64,000 bases of DNA, from positions 434,001 through 498,000 of the forward strand of contig NZ_KB823011.1 in the NCBI RefSeq assembly GCF_000365025.1, given 5' to 3'. The position numbers and the translations under genes were made by a program. How positions within the stretch are numbered: position 1 is the first letter of the stretch; each line of letters begins with the position of its first letter. The notes below the pieces were generated by a model. It made no database searches and had not been told where the DNA came from. It was given only the letters and a program-made list of their open reading frames with translations. Source of the stretch: Robiginitomaculum antarcticum DSM 21748 (lineage in GTDB: Bacteria > Pseudomonadota > Alphaproteobacteria > Caulobacterales > Maricaulaceae). This document shows positions 2,827 to 61,656 of this stretch, piece by piece.

Positions 2827-3141
2827 CTAACCTTCAGCGATTTGAACGCGGGCCTCTTCCATCAACGCGTCCATTTTTGTTCTAAGGTCAACGTCCGTAA
2901 TGCTCGCGCCGGCCTTGTCGAGATCCGCCTTAACCTTACGGAAGACATCCATATCGCCGGCTTCTTCGAAATCGGATTTAATGACCTCTTTTGCATAGGC
3001 GTCAGCGTCTTTGTGACCGATGAGCGGCGCGGCCCATAAGCCCAGCAGCTTGTTACGTCGCGCGCCGGCTTTGAATTCCTGTTCAGCGTCCAGCTCGAAC
3101 TTTTTCATGGCTGCGCCTTTGCGCTCGTCAAAACCACTCAT
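2827..3141 (-). CDS. DUF1476 protein, F1-ATPase inhibitor subunit zeta
   Basis: A 104-residue soluble helical protein beginning MSGFDERKGAAMKKF, which is the DUF1476/PF07345 signature. In Paracoccus this family (zeta subunit) binds and inhibits the F1 motor of ATP synthase, blocking ATP hydrolysis. Length and the conserved core (LLGLWAAPLIGH, YAKEVIKSDFEE) are typical. An AAAGGA ribosome binding site lies about 8 nt before the ATG. The gene converges on the cysH fusion, with 10 nt between the stops. It is transcribed divergently from purC. The role in this organism is inferred from the family. Confidence 0.9.
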   Translation of the reverse strand: MSGFDERKGAAMKKFELDAEQEFKAGARRNKLLGLWAAPLIGHKDADAYAKEVIKSDFEEAGDMDVFRKVKADLDKAGASITDVDLRTKMDALMEEARVQIAEG

Positions 3142-3340
3142 GGTGAAATCCTTTCAAAAGATATGTTACTTTGATGTGGCGGTTTTATCGCGCAGGTCAA
3201 GAGCCGTTAGATAAGCCATGCAACTTTTGTGTGTATGGGCCGCGCCGCGCCATTGTCGCGGCAGAGGCTTTAAGCTAAGGGGGTCGCTTAACGATTGCAG
3301 GCCGATTCAGGTATGGGCTGCGACCAGTGAAAGTCATGCT

Positions 3341-4123
3341 ATGAGCCGCCGCAAGCAAATATATGAAGGTAAAGCCAAAATCCTTTACGAAGGACCTGAG
3401 CCGGGCACTTTGGTGCAATATTTCAAAGATGACGCGACCGCGTTTAACGCTCAGAAAAAAGCGACACTTCAGGGCAAAGGCGTCCTTAATAACCGGATCA
3501 GTGAACATATTATGGTCGCGCTGGGCCGCGTCGGTATCCCGACCCACTTTATCAAACGCCTGAATATGCGCGAACAGCTCATCCGCAAGGTTGAGATTAT
3601 TCCGCTGGAAGTGATCTGCCGGAATGTGGCTGCCGGATCCATGTCTAAACGCCTGGGCATTGAAGAGGGTGAGCCGCTCCCCCGCGCGATCGTCGAATTC
3701 TGCCTGAAAGACGACAAATTGGGCGATCCCTTAGTGGCCGAAGAGCATGTTACAGCCTTTGGCTGGGCCAGTCCGTCCGAGATTGACGAATTGATCGCGA
3801 TGACTCTGAGGATCAATGATTTTCTGCAAGGCATGTTCTTTGGTATCGGGATTCGCCTTATTGACTTTAAAATCGAATTTGGACGTCTATATGACGGTGA
3901 TATGATGCAAATCCTGCTGGCCGATGAAATTAGTCCTGACAGCTGCCGTCTGTGGGACTTGGAGACAAACAAAAAGCTCGACAAAGACCGTTTCCGCCGT
4001 GACCTGGGCGAGGTGACTGAAGCTTACGCCGAAGTTGCGACGCGTCTGGGCATTATGAAAGATAATCCGGGCCCGGTGACAAAGCTCTCCGTGGTTCGCA
4101 ATGAAAAAAGTGACGAGGATTAA
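3341..4123 (+). CDS. purC: Phosphoribosylaminoimidazole-succinocarboxamide synthase
   Basis: SAICAR synthetase, which ligates aspartate to CAIR with ATP in step 8 of IMP synthesis. The 260-residue protein starts [15 protein letters not shown], the normal PurC N-terminus, and carries the family stretches [32 protein letters not shown] and [10 protein letters not shown]. The frame is open upstream to 3218, but those 41 residues (Cys/Arg-rich) look nothing like PurC, so the ATG at 3341 is preferred even though its ribosome binding site is weak. It is the first gene of a purC-purS-purQ-purL run. The 1-nt gap to purS suggests translational coupling. Confidence 0.95.
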
Positions 4124-4124
4124 T

Positions 4125-4367
4125 ATGAAGGCGATTGTTTATGTAGGCCTCAAGCCCGGCGTTCTGGATCCGCAGGGACGGACGATTGCGGGGTCATTGC
4201 AAAACCTTGGATTTGACGAGGTCAAGAGCGCCCGCCAGGGCAAAGTTATTGAGCTGGATCTGAAAAGTGAGAATGCAGAAGCCGCTGAGGCCCGCGTGAC
4301 TGAGATGTGCGAAAAATTACTCGCCAACACGGTTATCGAAAGTTACCGCATTGAGATTGAAGCCTAG
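4125..4367 (+). CDS. purS: Phosphoribosylformylglycinamidine synthase subunit PurS
   Basis: An 80-residue small subunit of the three-part FGAM synthase (PurSQL), which bridges the glutaminase and synthetase. The sequence has the PurS pattern [18 protein letters not shown], then [11 protein letters not shown] and a C-terminal SYRIEIE strand. ATG 4125 is chosen because it follows the purC stop by one base and has GACGAGG about 7 nt upstream; an earlier in-frame ATG at 4101 would add residues not seen in PurS. It is followed after 2 nt by purQ. Confidence 0.95.
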
Positions 4368-4369
4368 CC

Positions 4370-5032
4370 GTGCGCACTGCTGTCATTGTTTTTCCGGCCA
4401 GTAATTGTGATCGCGATGCCCGCGACGCTCTGGCTAAAGTCACGGGCCGCGAGCCTATTATGGTCTGGCACCGAGAAACAGAATTGCCTGATGTCGATTT
4501 TGTTGTAATTCCGGGCGGCTTTTCCTATGGCGATTATCTCCGCTCCGGCGCAATAGCTGCGCGCAGCGAAATTATGGCCGATGTCAAAACCAAAGTGGAA
4601 AAAGGCCTACCGGTTGCGGGGTTTTGCAATGGTTTTCAAGTGTTGACCGAGGCCGGAATTCTGCCTGGCGCCCTGATGCGCAACCGAAGCCTGAAATATA
4701 TTTGCAAGCCACAGCCTCTGACGATTACAAATACGAAAACCCGTTTTACCTCCGGCTTTAACGGACAAAAAGAAGTGGTTTTCCCGATTGCCCATCATGA
4801 TGGCAATTATTTTGCCGATAAGAAAACGATCGACCGTCTGGAGAAGAATGGTCAGGTGGTTTTCCGCTACAACGGCAACCCTAATGGGTCGATCAACGAT
4901 ATCGCCGGCATCACAAATGAAGCGGGGAATGTGCTGGGCATGATGCCTCATCCCGAACGGGCTGTGGACCCGCTGCATGGCGGAACTGACGGTCTGGCTC
5001 TCTTCAAATCTGTTCTGGGCGCGCTTCAGTAG
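4370..5032 (+). CDS. purQ: Phosphoribosylformylglycinamidine synthase, glutaminase subunit
   Basis: Class I glutamine amidotransferase subunit (220 residues) that releases ammonia from glutamine for FGAM synthesis. Visible features are the [18 protein letters not shown] segment, the nucleophile elbow GFCNGFQVL with Cys86, and the C-terminal MMPHPERA carrying the His and Glu of the triad. It starts with GTG, two bases after the purS stop. Length and spacing match the small PurQ that works with a separate PurS and PurL rather than the fused enterobacterial enzyme. Confidence 0.96.
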
Positions 5033-5044
5033 CGCGAAATTATA

Positions 5045-7273
5045 ATGAGCAAATCTATCAAAATTACGCCTGAAATAGTTGCGGAACATGGTCTGTCTAC
5101 CGGCGAGTACCAGATTATTCTGGATCGTTTGGGCCGCGAGCCGAACATTAACGAACTGGGTATTTTTTCGGTGATGTGGTCAGAGCATTGCTCTTACAAA
5201 TCCTCGCGCCGTCATTTGGGGAAGTTTCTGACCAAAGGCAAACGTGTCATACAAGGCCCGGGTGAGAATGCAGGCGTTGTAGATATCGATGATAACCAAG
5301 CCATAATCTTTAAAATGGAATCCCATAACCACCCGTCCTATATTGAGCCCTATCAAGGCGCGGCCACGGGCGTTGGCGGCATTATGCGCGATGTGTTCAC
5401 GATGGGCGCACGGCCGATTGCGTTGATGAATGCCCTGCGCTTTGGCGAGCCGGATCATCCTAAGACCCGTAGTCTTGTCTCCGGCGTTGTGGCCGGTATT
5501 GGCGGCTATGGCAATTGCGTCGGGGTTCCGACGGTTGGCGGTGAAACCAATTTCCACAAGGGGTATAACGGCAATATTTTGGTCAACGCCATGTGTGTCG
5601 GCCTCGCCGATCAGGACAAGGTTTTCTACTCTGCGGCCAAAGGCTCAGGGAATCCGGTCTTTTATGTGGGCTCTAAAACCGGACGCGACGGCATTCACGG
5701 CGCCACCATGGCATCGGCTGAATTTGATGACGACAGTGATGAGAAGCGCCCGACTGTGCAGGTTGGCGACCCATTCACGGAAAAACTGCTGATCGAAGCC
5801 TGTATGGAGCTGATGGCCACTGATGCAATTATAGCTATTCAGGATATGGGCGCAGCAGGACTAACGTCGTCTTCCGTTGAAATGGCTGACAAAGGCGGCG
5901 TCGGTATTAAAATCAATCTTGATAATGTGCCGCAACGCGAAACAGATATGACCCCGTACGAGATGATGCTTTCGGAGTCTCAAGAGCGCATGTTGATGGT
6001 GTTGCAGCCCGGCAAAGAACATTTGGCCTTCGATATTTTTAACAAATGGGAACTCGATGTTGCGCAAATCGGCGTCACAACTGATACCGGCCATCTTGTT
6101 CTAACCCATAAAGGCAAAACGGTTTGCGATATCCCAATTGCGCCTTTAGGCGATGATGCCCCCAATCTGAACCGCCCGCATAGCGCCACCCCGCAGCGCG
6201 AATATCTTGCCCCGGGCGATGCCCGCGCGCCGGAGAACTGGAACCAGACCATGCTGCAAATCATGGCATGTCCCGATGTGGCGTCCAAGCGTTGGATTTG
6301 GGAGCAATATGACCGTCACGTTATGGGAGACACAGTTGATAGCAGCCAGTCCGGCGGAGATGCGGCCATTGTGCGTATTCATGGCACCAACAAAGCTGTG
6401 GCGATCACGACTGACTGCACGCCGCGCTATTGCTATGCTGACCCGTATGAGGGTGGCAAACAGGCCGTCGCGGAAACTTATCGTAATTTGTGCGCCGTGG
6501 GCGCCGAGCCGATAGCAATTACGGATTGCCTGAATTTCGGCAATCCCGAACGTCCTGAAATTATGGGCCAATTCGTTGGCTGTGTTGAAGGCATGAATGA
6601 AGCCTGCCGCGCGCTGGATTATCCGGTCGTCTCCGGAAATGTATCTCTTTATAATGAAACCAATGGCGTTGCTATTCCGCCAACCCCTGCCATAGGCGGC
6701 GTGGGACTGATCGATAATCTGGGCAAGCATGCAACGCTGTCCGGCGCAAAAGACGGAGATACGCTTGTGCTCATCGGTAAAACCGATGGTTGGCTAGGCT
6801 GCTCTCTCTATGCACGTGAGGTTTTGGGTCATGAAAATGACGGCGTAGAGCAAATCTGTGCCCCGCCGCCTGTCGATCTGACGGCTGAGAAGGCTCATGG
6901 CGACTATGTCCGCCGGCTGATCCGGGACCGCCGCGTTACGGCCGTCCATGACTGTTCTGACGGCGGTATTGCGCTGGCCGCGATTGAAATGGCGTTTTCA
7001 AGCGGACAGGGGGTCACTCTCAAAAACCATCCGGATCTCCCGCTTCATGCCTGGATGTTCGGTGAAGATCAGGGGCGCTATATTCTTGCCGTTGATGAAA
7101 ACAGCGTTAATCCGGTTATCAGTACGGCAAATAGCAAGGGGCTTGAGGCGCGGATCATAGGAAAAGTTAGCGGCGAGCAGGTTCAAGTTGAAGGCGGATT
7201 TAATATCAGTCTCGAGAAATTGCGCGAGACTTATGAAGGCTGGATGCCTGAATTTATGGCAGAGATTGACTAA
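5045..7273 (+). CDS. purL: Phosphoribosylformylglycinamidine synthase, synthetase subunit
   Basis: The ATP-dependent subunit (742 residues) of FGAM synthase, of the small PurL type. It shows the AIRS-like halves: [15 protein letters not shown] near the N-terminus, [11 protein letters not shown] and the KMESHNHPS motif, [17 protein letters not shown]-like segments, [16 protein letters not shown] in the first half, and [18 protein letters not shown] in the second. It lies 12 nt after purQ. Its TAA overlaps the ATG of the BolA gene (TAATG), so downstream translation is probably coupled. Confidence 0.96.
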
Positions 7274-8031: not shown

Positions 8032-8604
8032 ATGAGCAAGTCAGCAGAACAGATCCAGCTTGACGCCAAGATGAGGCGGTCGGAAAAAAACCATAAAAAA
8101 TCAAAAGGTGGCAGCAAATCCGGCGGATTTTCAATAGGCTCCATATTGTTGTTCGGTATCACGGCGGCTCTGGTCTATGCCGGCCTTCATTATGTCGGCG
8201 CCTTTATTGATCTCAACAAAATTGCAGGCGTTTCTGCAAGGACGCTTGATCTGAATGCAGGGCCGCAGGGCGTCCGCAAATTAACCGCGCCATTGACTAA
8301 CCGCTCCAATGTGAAGAAAATATTCCTGCGCGAGGGGCAGGCGCTATCTGTCGAATATGCTCTGCCGGATAATGCCAATCTTGATTTGATTGTATCGCGG
8401 TGCAGTCCACGGCCTATCATAGAGGTCTTTAACTGCGAACCCGTAAGTAGTCGCATCGTTAAAATCCGCAACAAGACACAAGGCAGTTCGACAATTTTTG
8501 TTCAAGAGCCCGGCTTTTATAACTTTTCTGAAAAAGTCGTTATGGGCGCTGGCAAAACGGCAAAACGCGGCAAATCTTATGCTTTGGTCTGGCGCCGCGC
8601 CTAA
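8032..8604 (+). CDS. Hypothetical single-pass membrane protein
   Basis: I do not recognise this 190-residue protein. The first 32 residues are highly charged (Lys/Arg/Ser/Gly-rich), followed by one membrane segment (about residues 33-55, FSIGSILLFGITAALVYAGL) and a soluble domain of about 130 residues rich in beta-type sequence. That domain has two cysteines (RCSPRP, NCEP), which could form a disulfide if the domain is periplasmic. The positive N-terminus predicts an N-in, C-out anchor. GGAGG precedes the start. It converges on the thioredoxin-like gene at 8617, with 12 nt between the genes. Confidence 0.75.
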   Translation: MSKSAEQIQLDAKMRRSEKNHKKSKGGSKSGGFSIGSILLFGITAALVYAGLHYVGAFIDLNKIAGVSARTLDLNAGPQGVRKLTAPLTNRSNVKKIFLREGQALSVEYALPDNANLDLIVSRCSPRPIIEVFNCEPVSSRIVKIRNKTQGSSTIFVQEPGFYNFSEKVVMGAGKTAKRGKSYALVWRRA

Positions 8605-8616
8605 GAGCGTCAAAAT

Positions 8617-9063
8617 CTATCGGTTCGGCCCCGGACATGTCAGGTCAAAATTCTCGCCGTCGCGTAAAGCGATTTGCTTTAATCCAGATATATGTGCCTT
8701 CATGGCACCTGCATCATAGGTCATGTTTACACATCCAAGGCTGCGTTTAGTGTCTGGATCAACAATGACAGCAAAACCGGTGAGTCCGGCCCACATGTTA
8801 TATTGGTCAACTACATTGGCATCAAAAGCGACATTGGCGACCTGCATGCTTGCGCCATTGGTCGTATCGATCGTCACAACCTGAATCTGAGGGTCGTTAA
8901 GCTGGCGCAAAGCGGTTTTGAGAGACGGCTCCATAATTTTGCATGGTCCGCACCAATCAGCACGAAAGACGACGACTTGGATTTCGGGTTTGACATAGGA
9001 TCTCGCGCTGGCGGGAACAACCGCAGCAAAGAGCAAGGCGCAGACGCCTATTAGCTTTTTCAT
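8617..9063 (-). CDS. Secreted thioredoxin-like protein, WCGPC active site (paralogue 1 of 3)
   Basis: A 148-residue protein with a cleavable signal peptide (residues 1-20, ending PASA) and a thioredoxin fold. The active site is the classical WCGPC (Cys38, Cys41). Two further cysteines, Cys111 (GCV) and Cys143 (TCPG), are shared with the two paralogues upstream. The usual cis-proline loop is replaced by GLTGF. ATG 9063 is chosen because GGAGA lies 7 nt upstream and it begins the signal peptide; the frame is open further upstream. It is the last of three tandem genes on the same strand, probably periplasmic thiol-disulfide proteins. The substrate is unknown. Confidence 0.85.
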   Translation of the reverse strand: MKKLIGVCALLFAAVVPASARSYVKPEIQVVVFRADWCGPCKIMEPSLKTALRQLNDPQIQVVTIDTTNGASMQVANVAFDANVVDQYNMWAGLTGFAVIVDPDTKRSLGCVNMTYDAGAMKAHISGLKQIALRDGENFDLTCPGPNR

Positions 9064-9139
9064 ATTTATCTCCGGATGCCGATAACGGCTTATAACAGGA
9101 CAAATATGAACGCAGCCCTTTACGCGAACCTCTATAAGC

Positions 9140-9161
9140 AAAAATCCCGCCAGATGGCGGG
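9140..9161 (-). terminator. Intrinsic terminator after the 9176-9634 gene
   Basis: On the - strand CCCGCC-atct-GGCGGG forms a perfect 6-bp GC stem followed by ATTTTT. It lies 15 nt beyond the stop of the 9176-9634 gene and ahead of the next - strand gene, so paralogue 1 may need its own promoter or readthrough. Confidence 0.8.
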
Positions 9162-9175
9162 GTCTTAATGCAAAA

Positions 9176-9634
9176 TTAGTGTGGTAATTTATTTTTTACG
9201 GGCGGACATTGATAATTGCCGGACAAGACAGGGGAGCTACCTTGGCGCGACGCTGCCGCCGTTTGTATCAAATCGGTTATCTTGGATGAGTTGTCATCGT
9301 CGTCCACACATCCGATAAGGCTGTCCGTCTTAGGGTCAACCACGGCTGTAAACCCGGTCAGTCCGGCATATTGGTTAAAGGTCGGAACAACATCAGCGTC
9401 AAACGCCCCGTAGGCGCTGCCTTCCCATTTGGCCGCATTAGACGTATCGATTGTAACACTGGTCACGTTAGCCGTGCCAACCCGCGCAATCGCTGTGTCG
9501 ACAAGGTTTTCCATCGTGCTACAGTTCTGGCAGTCATCTGCAACAAATTTCATGACCACAACATCTGTTGCGCTAACCGGCGAGGCGAGTGCAATGGCTG
9601 TCATAGCCGCGGTAAAAATGAATGTTTTTCTCAT
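9176..9634 (-). CDS. Secreted thioredoxin-like protein, DCQNC site (paralogue 2 of 3)
   Basis: A 152-residue paralogue of its two neighbours. It has a signal peptide ending at PVSA (about residue 22), then VVVMKFVADDCQNC, where the tryptophan and Gly-Pro of the classical site are replaced and only Cys35-x2-Cys38 remains. Cys109 (IGCV) and Cys143 (YQCP) match the extra cysteines of the other copies. The loop that normally carries the cis-proline reads YAGLTGF, with threonine at the expected place. It is separated from paralogue 3 by about 130 nt and followed by an intrinsic terminator. Redox activity is possible but atypical; a sensor or metal-binding role is also conceivable. Confidence 0.82.
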   Translation of the reverse strand: MRKTFIFTAAMTAIALASPVSATDVVVMKFVADDCQNCSTMENLVDTAIARVGTANVTSVTIDTSNAAKWEGSAYGAFDADVVPTFNQYAGLTGFTAVVDPKTDSLIGCVDDDDNSSKITDLIQTAAASRQGSSPVLSGNYQCPPVKNKLPH

Positions 9635-9765
9635 AACTAAGTTCCCCTTAGGTGTGTCTGTAAAATTCCATCATATATTGATGTCTTTTTAAAGTGGTTA
9701 ATGCGGTTTCCACTGTAAAAAATGCCCTACGAGGATGTCATAGAACATTCTTGAAGATTTTGCAC

Positions 9766-10224
9766 TTAAAATTTATTGTACGGAGCCGGGCAGCGGTAGT
9801 TCTCTATGGCGACTGATGCGCTGCTTTGATGCGGAATTCTGGCCGCGCTTTTGATCAGATTAGCGACATCATTCGGATTATAATTGCTGTTCACACAGCC
9901 AATCAGGCGTTTGGATTGCGGATCCACAATTGCTGCAAATCCCGTCAGTCCGACATATTGATTAAACACAGGCACAACATTGGCATTAAATGCATCATGC
10001 GCGCTGCGTTCCCAGAGCGCCGCATTTGAAATATCGATTGTGACAGTCTTGACAGATCTGTCCCCAACCAGAGACACAGCGGTATCAACATTTGTTTCTA
10101 GTGGCGCACAGGTTTGGCAATCACTGGAAACAAATTTCATGACAACAACCTCGGAGGCATTGGCTTGAGTTGCAAAAGACGCAAGAAGAAGTGCTGCGCC
10201 CACCATAGACGTTAATTTTATCAT
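9766..10224 (-). CDS. Secreted thioredoxin-like protein, DCQTC site (paralogue 3 of 3)
   Basis: A 152-residue secreted protein with a signal peptide ending near residue 24 (QANAS), then VVVMKFVSSDCQTC (Cys36, Cys39), YVGLTGF in place of the cis-Pro loop, IGCV (Cys110) and YRCP (Cys145). Over its length it is most like paralogue 2. It is the promoter-proximal member of the tandem set, facing the long upstream gap at 10225-10573. The three genes arose by tandem duplication; this copy and paralogue 2 share the altered active site, so the split between canonical and altered forms predates their own duplication. Confidence 0.82.
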   Translation of the reverse strand: MIKLTSMVGAALLLASFATQANASEVVVMKFVSSDCQTCAPLETNVDTAVSLVGDRSVKTVTIDISNAALWERSAHDAFNANVVPVFNQYVGLTGFAAIVDPQSKRLIGCVNSNYNPNDVANLIKSAARIPHQSSASVAIENYRCPAPYNKF

Positions 10225-60390: not shown

Positions 60391-61656
60391 ATGAGAAAAC
60401 CGGTCGGCATACAGCATTTATCGAACGCTCCTTTGCCTATGCCTGTATGGGAATTCGTGGGCATGGTCGCATGCATGATTGCTCTGAACGCGCTGGCAAT
60501 TGATGTCATGTTGCCGGCCTTAGGCGTCATCGGTGAGCATTTTGAGCTTCAAAATCCCAATCACCAGCAATTTATACTTTATGCTTATATTGCCGGATTT
60601 GGCGCGCCGCAGCTAATTTTCGGTCCCATTAGTGACCGGTTCGGGCGCAAGGGTTTGTTGAATATATGTTTGATCGGCTATGCGGCTATGGGCGTTTTAT
60701 GCATGATTGCGCCAAGCTTTACTCTGCTGCTCGTCGCCCGTTTTGTTCACGGCGTCTTCTCGTCTGGCGTCCGCGTCATCGGCGTATCAATTGTACGCGA
60801 CCTTATGGCCGGGCGGGCTATGGCGCGTATTATGTCCCTTGTCATGACCGTCTTTATGATTGTTCCGATTATTGCGCCGGCTATCGGGCAGGGCATTATG
60901 ACATTTGCTGATTGGCATTGGACGTTCGGCGTTACGGCAATCGGCGCGATCGGATTGATAATTTGGGCGCATATAAGATTGCCCGAAACTTTGCCGGAAG
61001 ACCACCGTCAGGATTTGAAGTTTAGCCGGGTAATGAAGAGCTTTTGGTCGGTTCTATCGACCCGCGTCACCTGCGGATATATGGTCGCCAGCGGCGTCAT
61101 CTTTGGGTCTCTATTTTCATTTATCGCGGCCAGCGAGCAGATTTTTGATGTTGTATTCGGACGTGGCGATCAATTTGCGTTGTGGTTTGCCATTATTGCG
61201 GGTGCTTTGGCCGTATCGAATTTTGCAAATTCAAAGATTGTCGAAGCCATCGGGATGCGCCGCATCAGTCATACTGTTCTATTCGTATTTATTACAATGT
61301 CGGCCGCGACAGCTCTGACTATGAGTATTGTCGGGCCGAATTTGTATGTCTTCCTGCCGATGTTCTGCATTGTTTTTGGATGTTTCGGTATGATGGGCGC
61401 GAATTTCTCGGCGCTGGCTATGGAAGCACAGGGCAATATTGCCGGTACGGCCAGTGCTGTTTACGGCTTTTTCACAACCACTGTCGCTGCCGGATTTGGC
61501 TGGATTGTCTCCAGCCAATTTAACGGCAGCGTTGTGCCGATGATGATAGGATTTGTGGGTCTGGGACTATTATCTCTATTTATCATTACATATACCGAAA
61601 AGGGAAAGCTCTTCGGTATAGGCGAGGGTAAAGAAGACGAAACAGTTAACGTTTAG
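60391..61656 (+). CDS. MFS transporter, Bcr/CflA drug-resistance type
   Basis: A 421-residue, 12-helix proton-driven exporter. Motif A FGPISDRFGRKGLLNI follows the second helix, and LAIDVMLPALGVIGEHF in the first helix is characteristic of the Bcr/CflA subfamily. There is also FVHGVFSSGVRVIGVSIVRDL in helices 4-5. It exports drugs or small metabolites, substrate unknown. A gap of about 90 nt separates it from the nitroreductase gene. Its stop overlaps that of the convergent ligase gene by 4 nt. Confidence 0.9.
   Translation: MRKPVGIQHLSNAPLPMPVWEFVGMVACMIALNALAIDVMLPALGVIGEHFELQNPNHQQFILYAYIAGFGAPQLIFGPISDRFGRKGLLNICLIGYAAMGVLCMIAPSFTLLLVARFVHGVFSSGVRVIGVSIVRDLMAGRAMARIMSLVMTVFMIVPIIAPAIGQGIMTFADWHWTFGVTAIGAIGLIIWAHIRLPETLPEDHRQDLKFSRVMKSFWSVLSTRVTCGYMVASGVIFGSLFSFIAASEQIFDVVFGRGDQFALWFAIIAGALAVSNFANSKIVEAIGMRRISHTVLFVFITMSAATALTMSIVGPNLYVFLPMFCIVFGCFGMMGANFSALAMEAQGNIAGTASAVYGFFTTTVAAGFGWIVSSQFNGSVVPMMIGFVGLGLLSLFIITYTEKGKLFGIGEGKEDETVNV

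Follow-up and report, generated by a model that had tools for sequence, protein, structure and literature searches.

Predicted exported thioredoxin-fold proteins of Caulobacterales with threonine at the probable cis-proline position

Three adjacent genes in the window (the whole 64,000-nucleotide stretch of Robiginitomaculum antarcticum DNA that was analyzed) encode proteins, P0001, P0002, and P0003, that are predicted to be exported thioredoxin-fold dithiol proteins, and the mark of their family would be a GxTG loop replacing the cis-proline loop. The reading put forward here, tentatively, is of exported dithiol proteins that lack the cis-proline lock, are probably slow or dedicated to particular partners, and are paired with a paralogue able to become a pure binder.

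The ORFs of P0001, P0002, and P0003 were all intact and all on the minus strand (Table 1). The mechanically called ORF of P0001 begins upstream at 9141, and its signal-like sequence begins with the ATG at 9063. By inspection, all three N-termini were signal-like, and a GCV motif and a near-terminal CP were present in each protein. An earlier note on this DNA had described the active sites WCGPC, DCQNC, and DCQTC, each accompanied by a GLTGF loop, and this description held for the three intact ORFs. It had also described two extra cysteines, which are present and conserved, but their numbering needed correction: the residues in P0001 are Cys111 and Cys143, not 110 and 145. A search of the genome with P0002 alone (E <= 0.01) matched P0001, P0002, and P0003, and a profile search of the same genome added a fourth, remote family member on another contig. 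The fourth member (L309:4487-5008, plus strand; contig 2 at 60558-61004) had a WCASC active site, an ITG loop, and a lipoprotein-like start, and was without the extra cysteine pair.

Table 1. Coordinates within the window of the three genes and of their active-site, loop, and cysteine features.
Feature	Coordinates	Strand	Length, motifs, or basis
P0001, type A: exported thioredoxin-fold protein (predicted)	8617..9063	-	148 aa, WCGPC, GLTGF, Cys111, Cys143
P0001 CGPC active site, Cys38-Cys41	8941..8952	-	sequence
P0001 GLTGF loop, Thr95, probable cis-proline position	8773..8787	-	sequence, alignment, profile comparison
P0001 Cys111, last strand of model	8731..8733	-	sequence, model
P0001 Cys143, C-terminal tail of model	8635..8637	-	sequence, model
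P0002, type B paralogue, DCQNC, GLTGF	9176..9634	-	152 aa
P0002 CQNC	9521..9532	-	sequence
P0002 GLTGF loop	9350..9364	-	sequence
P0003, type B paralogue, DCQTC, GLTGF	9766..10224	-	152 aa
P0003 CQTC	10108..10119	-	sequence
P0003 GLTGF loop	9937..9951	-	sequence

Relatives were found in 70 of 137 genomes of the host's taxonomic family (E <= 0.001) and in 125 of 299 sampled genomes of the order (E <= 1e-12). In total, 140 family-level proteins were extracted from stretches of all 70 genomes. One type A protein, like P0001, was found in 53 of these genomes, and both active-site cysteines were present in all 53 type A proteins. The partners in the type A genomes were as follows: one type B protein in 51 genomes, two in the window genome, and none in genome G105, in which the locus (L080) kept type A with a short gap between purB and A and no type B in it. 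The remaining 17 genomes contained proteins of two further subfamilies, g18a and g18b, named after their main genus code: 16 had one g18a and one g18b protein, and one had two g18b-like proteins.

Named relatives, at 20 of 79 loci, included Hellea, Robiginitomaculum, Litorimonas, and further Caulobacterales. A class-level sample gave matches in 51 of 385 genomes at E <= 1e-8, own genome included, and these were mostly proteins of about 300 residues aligned over the CxxC part. Clear members beyond the order were found in three of the 385 genomes of the class sample and in one of the 249 genomes of a phylum sample, and all four carried TG in the loop. By their sequences, the loop-threonine proteins are an old family of the order Caulobacterales (the order as given by the named relatives) and are rare outside it. 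No relative was found when a viral collection was searched with P0002. A further scan of that collection, A1, kept 80 of 227 matches, all of them partial (query residues 9-127) and most near the CxxC.

Fixed columns were read from an alignment of 159 sequences, comprising the 140 family-level proteins and 19 from other parts of the order. At the Thr95 column, the 123 rows with both active-site cysteines contained Thr in 121, Val in two, and Pro in none, and the 36 rows without either active-site cysteine, all of them type B, contained Pro in every case. A cruder tally of the 140 family-level proteins (101 T, 36 P, 2 V, plus one STGF row) agreed with the column count. Among the CxxC members, Val in place of Thr (GKVGF) occurred only in L056:3903-4388 and L088:2083-2568, both from one genus. 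Twenty-eight members were hand-picked for diversity (18-47% identity to P0001; CxxC-less rows and both Val rows excluded), and the positions invariant among them were C38, C41, G93, T95, and G96. As controls, 58 ordinary thioredoxin sequences were extracted from 59 loci; 57 had Pro at the conserved column, and the remaining one was cropped before it.

On sequence grounds, the loop threonine is a family signature and not local decay, because it was invariant together with the CxxC in the 28 diverse members. The earlier note had called threonine for proline in this loop unusual, which the controls bear out. It had also described an eroding active site in an enzyme that had moved away from redox chemistry. 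Trp is indeed replaced by Asp in P0002 and P0003, but Thr is the usual state of the family, and its invariance with the CxxC, together with the TG loops of the four members from outside the order, speaks against a reading of an enzyme in decay.

AlphaFold2 predicted a thioredoxin fold for P0001 (pLDDT 92.6) and P0003 (pLDDT 92.7) from alignments of 33 and 34 rows. The elements of the P0001 model are ordered strand-helix-strand-helix-helix-strand-strand-helix, and the modelled mature proteins, of 129 residues, share the same eight elements. DsbA has a helical domain inserted in its fold; unlike DsbA, the two models have none. Matches from fold searches were generic and thioredoxin-like (Foldseek TM about 0.5; VIA Z 7.8-9.1 and 7.5-9.1). 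The top VIA rows, at Z 9.1 each, were the PDILT b' domain (rmsd 3.2 over 105 residues) and a designed thioredoxin (rmsd 3.0 over 88). The match to human Trx2 (1uvz_C) had a Z of 8.5 in one VIA search (91 residues, rmsd 2.9) and 8.7 in the other (89 residues, rmsd 2.8), and many thioredoxins lay within one Z unit of the best row. No closer fold family emerged from the Foldseek and VIA lists, absence from which excludes nothing.

The Pfam thioredoxin model PF00085 matched P0001 with an E value of 7.6e-10 over residues 27-73, covering only profile positions 19-64 of 103; P0002 and P0003 fell below the Pfam cut-off, and 27 of the 28 diverse members were matched at E <= 0.01. No NCBIfam model reached its cut-off for P0001-P0003 or for nine relatives, and no family-specific Pfam or NCBIfam model matched. 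The predicted thioredoxin fold was accompanied by a CxxC in all three window proteins and in 123 of the 159 aligned sequences. No canonical cis-proline was found beside the CxxC, as judged from sequence and predicted secondary structure: Pro occupied the Thr95 column in 0 of 123 rows. A second feature of thioredoxin, the buried acid that helps it resolve its intermediates, was also absent; at that position, six residues before the first active-site cysteine, Asp or Glu was found in 0 of 159 family rows vs. 57 of 58 controls.

Thr95 is the probable cis-proline position, although its register is uncertain and some sequence comparisons disagree. Family profiles were compared with ordinary thioredoxins by hhalign, using three settings each. 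With the whole family, Thr fell on the cis-Pro in all three settings; with type A, a single setting extended as far as the loop, and there Thr fell on Pro. The g18a-like set placed Thr on Pro in two of three runs, the third stopping short of the loop, and the g18b-like set did so in one of three, the cis-Pro being placed upstream in the other two. For CxxC-less type B, Pro fell on Pro in two of three settings, at 4.5% probability. For type B with CxxC, the template cis-proline fell on a Pro nine residues upstream of the Thr. In mixed MAFFT alignments with thioredoxins, and likewise in comparisons with TlpA-like profiles, the cis-proline fell about three residues downstream of the Thr.

Position in the models favored Thr95. 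In both, the fourth strand starts two residues after the Thr (76 and 78 in P0001; 71 and 73 in P0003). The residue at +3 belongs to this strand, whereas the upstream Pro in the P0003 model sits within a helix, eleven residues short of the strand. The +3 register was rejected by judgement, since its residue falls within the strand. The upstream Pro was rejected as a cis-proline on account of its helical position in P0003 and its absence at -9 from 97 of the 123 CxxC members. This Pro was found at -9 in 26 of the 123 (15 of 17 type B with CxxC and 11 of 53 type A, P0001 not among them) and at -10 in eight (g18b). A register shifted by one, onto Gly96, is possible; that column was Gly in 159 of 159 rows, and the loop would still be Pro-less there. 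Of these registers, only the upstream one would give some members a cis-proline, and even then P0001 would lack one. The earlier note had named, as a combined finding against its reading, a proline in the cis position elsewhere and extra cysteines not conserved in homologues. That objection is removed only in part. Counted from the Thr, Pro was absent between -5 and +6 in 121 of the 123 CxxC members and stood at -2 in two, but the upstream Pro of type B was aligned with the cis-proline by profile comparison.

One alternative is that the proteins are ordinary periplasmic thiol reductases or oxidases in which the loop drifted with little consequence, or the cis-proline lies elsewhere, and Thr is tolerated rather than selected. 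The retained CxxC and overall predicted fold, the Val in two members, and the profile alignment of the type B upstream Pro all suit such an enzyme. Nonetheless, we hold it doubtful: across the 28 chosen members at 18-47% identity to P0001, Thr and the active-site cysteines are equally invariant, the upstream Pro is missing from P0001 and from most CxxC members, and DsbA is strongly impaired by the same change (PMC13269488).

A tree of 90 of the 159 rows, built by a quick method, placed type B in one clade (SH-aLRT 99) and CxxC-less type B in one clade inside it (SH-aLRT 100). The CxxC state changed a single time on this tree, and Pro went with the same rows. Because it amounts to one event, the coupling of Thr or Pro with the CxxC carries no statistical weight as covariation and is suggestive only. 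P0002 and P0003 grouped together with moderate support (SH-aLRT 88), and on this grouping the triplet is probably a B-A pair plus one duplication in the window lineage.

CxxC-less type B of the sister genera is under purifying selection and is not decaying. The median dN/dS was 0.128 for CxxC-less type B (151 usable of 630 pairs), 0.152 for type A (67 pairs), and 0.194 for type B with CxxC (22 pairs). Over 630 genome pairs, mean identity was 0.682 for CxxC-less type B vs. 0.677 for type A, with B higher in 334 pairs. Type B with CxxC was conserved less well than type A (mean identity over 120 genome pairs 0.585 vs. 0.656, with B higher in 14 pairs), a point against the reading put forward here.

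Both extra cysteines were present in 129 of the 159 aligned rows, neither in 29, and one in a single row cut by a contig end. Together with the Thr in 121 of 123 CxxC sequences, this carries the pattern pointed out in the earlier note beyond chance. All 36 CxxC-less proteins kept both extra cysteines. The proteins without either comprised 18 g18b and 11 order-level proteins, all with a CxxC. Cysteines were also counted over the final 135 residues of each of the 140 family-level proteins: four in type A, four in type B with CxxC, two in type B without CxxC, four in g18a, and two in g18b. In the cut-off L035 protein, the fourth cysteine of the count was a signal-region Cys. Cys111-Cys143 would be a structural disulfide that anchors the C-terminal tail on the sheet; this is favored over a relay because the two cysteines are kept or missing as a pair and are retained in every CxxC-less protein. 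The relay or metal site suggested for them in the earlier note is weakened by the same pattern, although their conservation stands; the truncated row is the only exception to their loss as a pair.

Metal could also enter through the loop change itself, with a metal or [2Fe-2S] cluster held on the CxxC, with or without the extra cysteines, in proteins serving as metal carriers or sensors. Human thioredoxin 1 with P75S/T/A incorporates a [2Fe-2S] cluster (PMC6210436), and the cis-proline may keep metal off the CxxC (PMC2757866). The human cluster seems to need Cys73 too (PMC6210436), however, and in the family the position two residues ahead of the Thr holds Gly in 157 of 159 rows and Pro in two. 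Loss of the CxxC leaves the extra cysteines in place, and 29 members with a CxxC are without them. The type A columns with at least 95% conservation include a single His (H124, in the last helix) and no Met; we regard the metal reading as improbable. A relay passing electrons between Cys111/Cys143 and the CxxC, in either direction, is very improbable: most members have four cysteines, and Cys111 sits in the last strand of the P0001 model, a strand that in thioredoxins usually returns toward the end with the active site, but CxxC-less proteins keep both extra cysteines under similar constraint, and a relay without its donor site would not be kept.

The tandem B-A pair occupies a mostly fixed chromosomal place, and its neighbors give no functional link. 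Among 40 family-level loci with wide flanks, purB was found in 38, a PF07345 gene in 35, and both in 33. PF07345 is the ATPase inhibitor subunit zeta gene, which adjoins purC, and the common order was: purB, B, A, inhibitor gene, purC-purS-purQ-purL. At the order level, purB was found in nine of 20 loci. Same-site tandem pairs from other subfamilies and other genera were seen at L053:4045-4958 and at g18 loci such as L049:4326-5322, and some same-site pairs of other genera were without the extra cysteine pair. A gap of about 2.8 kb separated the B and A genes in L041 and L046; in L041, a two-subunit molybdo-hydroxylase-like enzyme (named by eye; 3104-5753, minus strand) lay between them.

In the window genome, purB was distant (contig 1 at 762 kb), and the cluster was flanked by a glutaredoxin/hypothetical pair on one side and an NDUFA12 gene on the other. 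In two genomes of the window genus (L033 and L034), A still adjoins the inhibitor gene. Given these two genomes and the distant purB, the window cluster has probably moved from the usual site. A role connected with purine synthesis was weighed but not accepted, since the proteins appear to be exported, the association is one of position, and the window cluster is off the site. The hypothetical protein adjoining the cluster (8032-8604, plus strand) had no Pfam match, and a protein 39% identical to it was found beside grxD in L033.

Compared with known systems, the family resembles thioredoxin (PF00085) in its predicted fold, in a CxxC at the start of a helix, and in the WCGPC of P0001; it differs in apparent export, in the two extra cysteines, in a loop in which no cis-proline was found, and in the missing buried acid. 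TlpA and ResA (Thioredoxin_8, PF13905) have a helix and a strand inserted mid-fold. The family shares with them export and the CxxC, gave an hhalign probability of 97.8 to a TlpA-like profile from relatives, and had TlpA and ResA among its Foldseek matches. Unlike the family, all 28 TlpA-like sequences (from 29 loci) had Pro in the loop by inspection. The DsbA P151T and QSOX1 P119T mutants also carry Thr for the cis-proline beside an intact CxxC (PMC13269488, PMC6295897), but in those mutants the substitution was made in the laboratory and impairs turnover, and here it is the usual natural state. Peroxiredoxins and Sco are likewise thioredoxin-fold classes, and peroxiredoxins have Arg at the cis-proline position; they differ in their cysteines: one alone in most peroxiredoxins, at the second position of the CxxC, and CxxxC spacing in Sco in place of the CxxC of P0001-P0003 (PMC2757866). 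Eps1p is a naturally occurring thioredoxin-fold protein that departs from the classic geometry; going by the title of its report, its motifs are kept, whereas the family here lacks the Pro itself. Since a non-proline residue at this position is already known from peroxiredoxins (PMC2757866), the family would be a variant within a known fold class and no new kind. In the open-access literature, as far as excerpts cover it, searches for a natural Thr at the cis-proline position, a missing cis-proline, or a purB-linked gene in Caulobacter returned nothing describing the family.

The preferred reading, of dithiol proteins without the lock, would have the CxxC operate with neither a cis-proline nor thioredoxin's buried acidic residue. 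The lack of both points to slow turnover on general substrates and to service to one or a few dedicated periplasmic partners. Type B would be the partner paralogue, weakly enzymatic or non-enzymatic, and type B that has lost the CxxC may act by binding alone. Its loop Pro is proposed to reflect the loss of whatever favored Thr. The window genome encodes DsbB and DsbD domains, which could recycle the dithiols, so that oxidizing and reducing supply may both exist. That the members are natural thioredoxin-fold oxidoreductases doing dithiol chemistry on a Thr-Gly loop, with Thr selected while the CxxC is present, seems to us rather unlikely.

One possible route to dedicated action is through long-lived mixed disulfides with the partner. 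In earlier work on DsbA, the Pro-to-Thr change stabilized mixed disulfides, and the corresponding QSOX1 mutant had a trans bond (PMC6295897). DsbA P151T keeps its redox potential, with about 36% of the rate constant and a plateau near 50% turnover, and gave no stable mixed disulfide in vitro (PMC13269488). This last result opposes the long-lived-intermediate version of the preferred reading.

A 2026 paper presents the cis-proline lock as the single invariant feature of thioredoxin-fold catalysis (PMC13269488), and the family looks like a natural set of exceptions to it. It comes with a built-in comparison, as sister paralogues without the cysteines carry Pro at the same place, and this would allow a direct test of the role of the proline. 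The family is also a possible source of stable covalent binders. If, in the less likely case, Thr is selected for as long as the CxxC is there, a substitution engineered as a substrate trap would also be a naturally evolved way of holding a dedicated partner.
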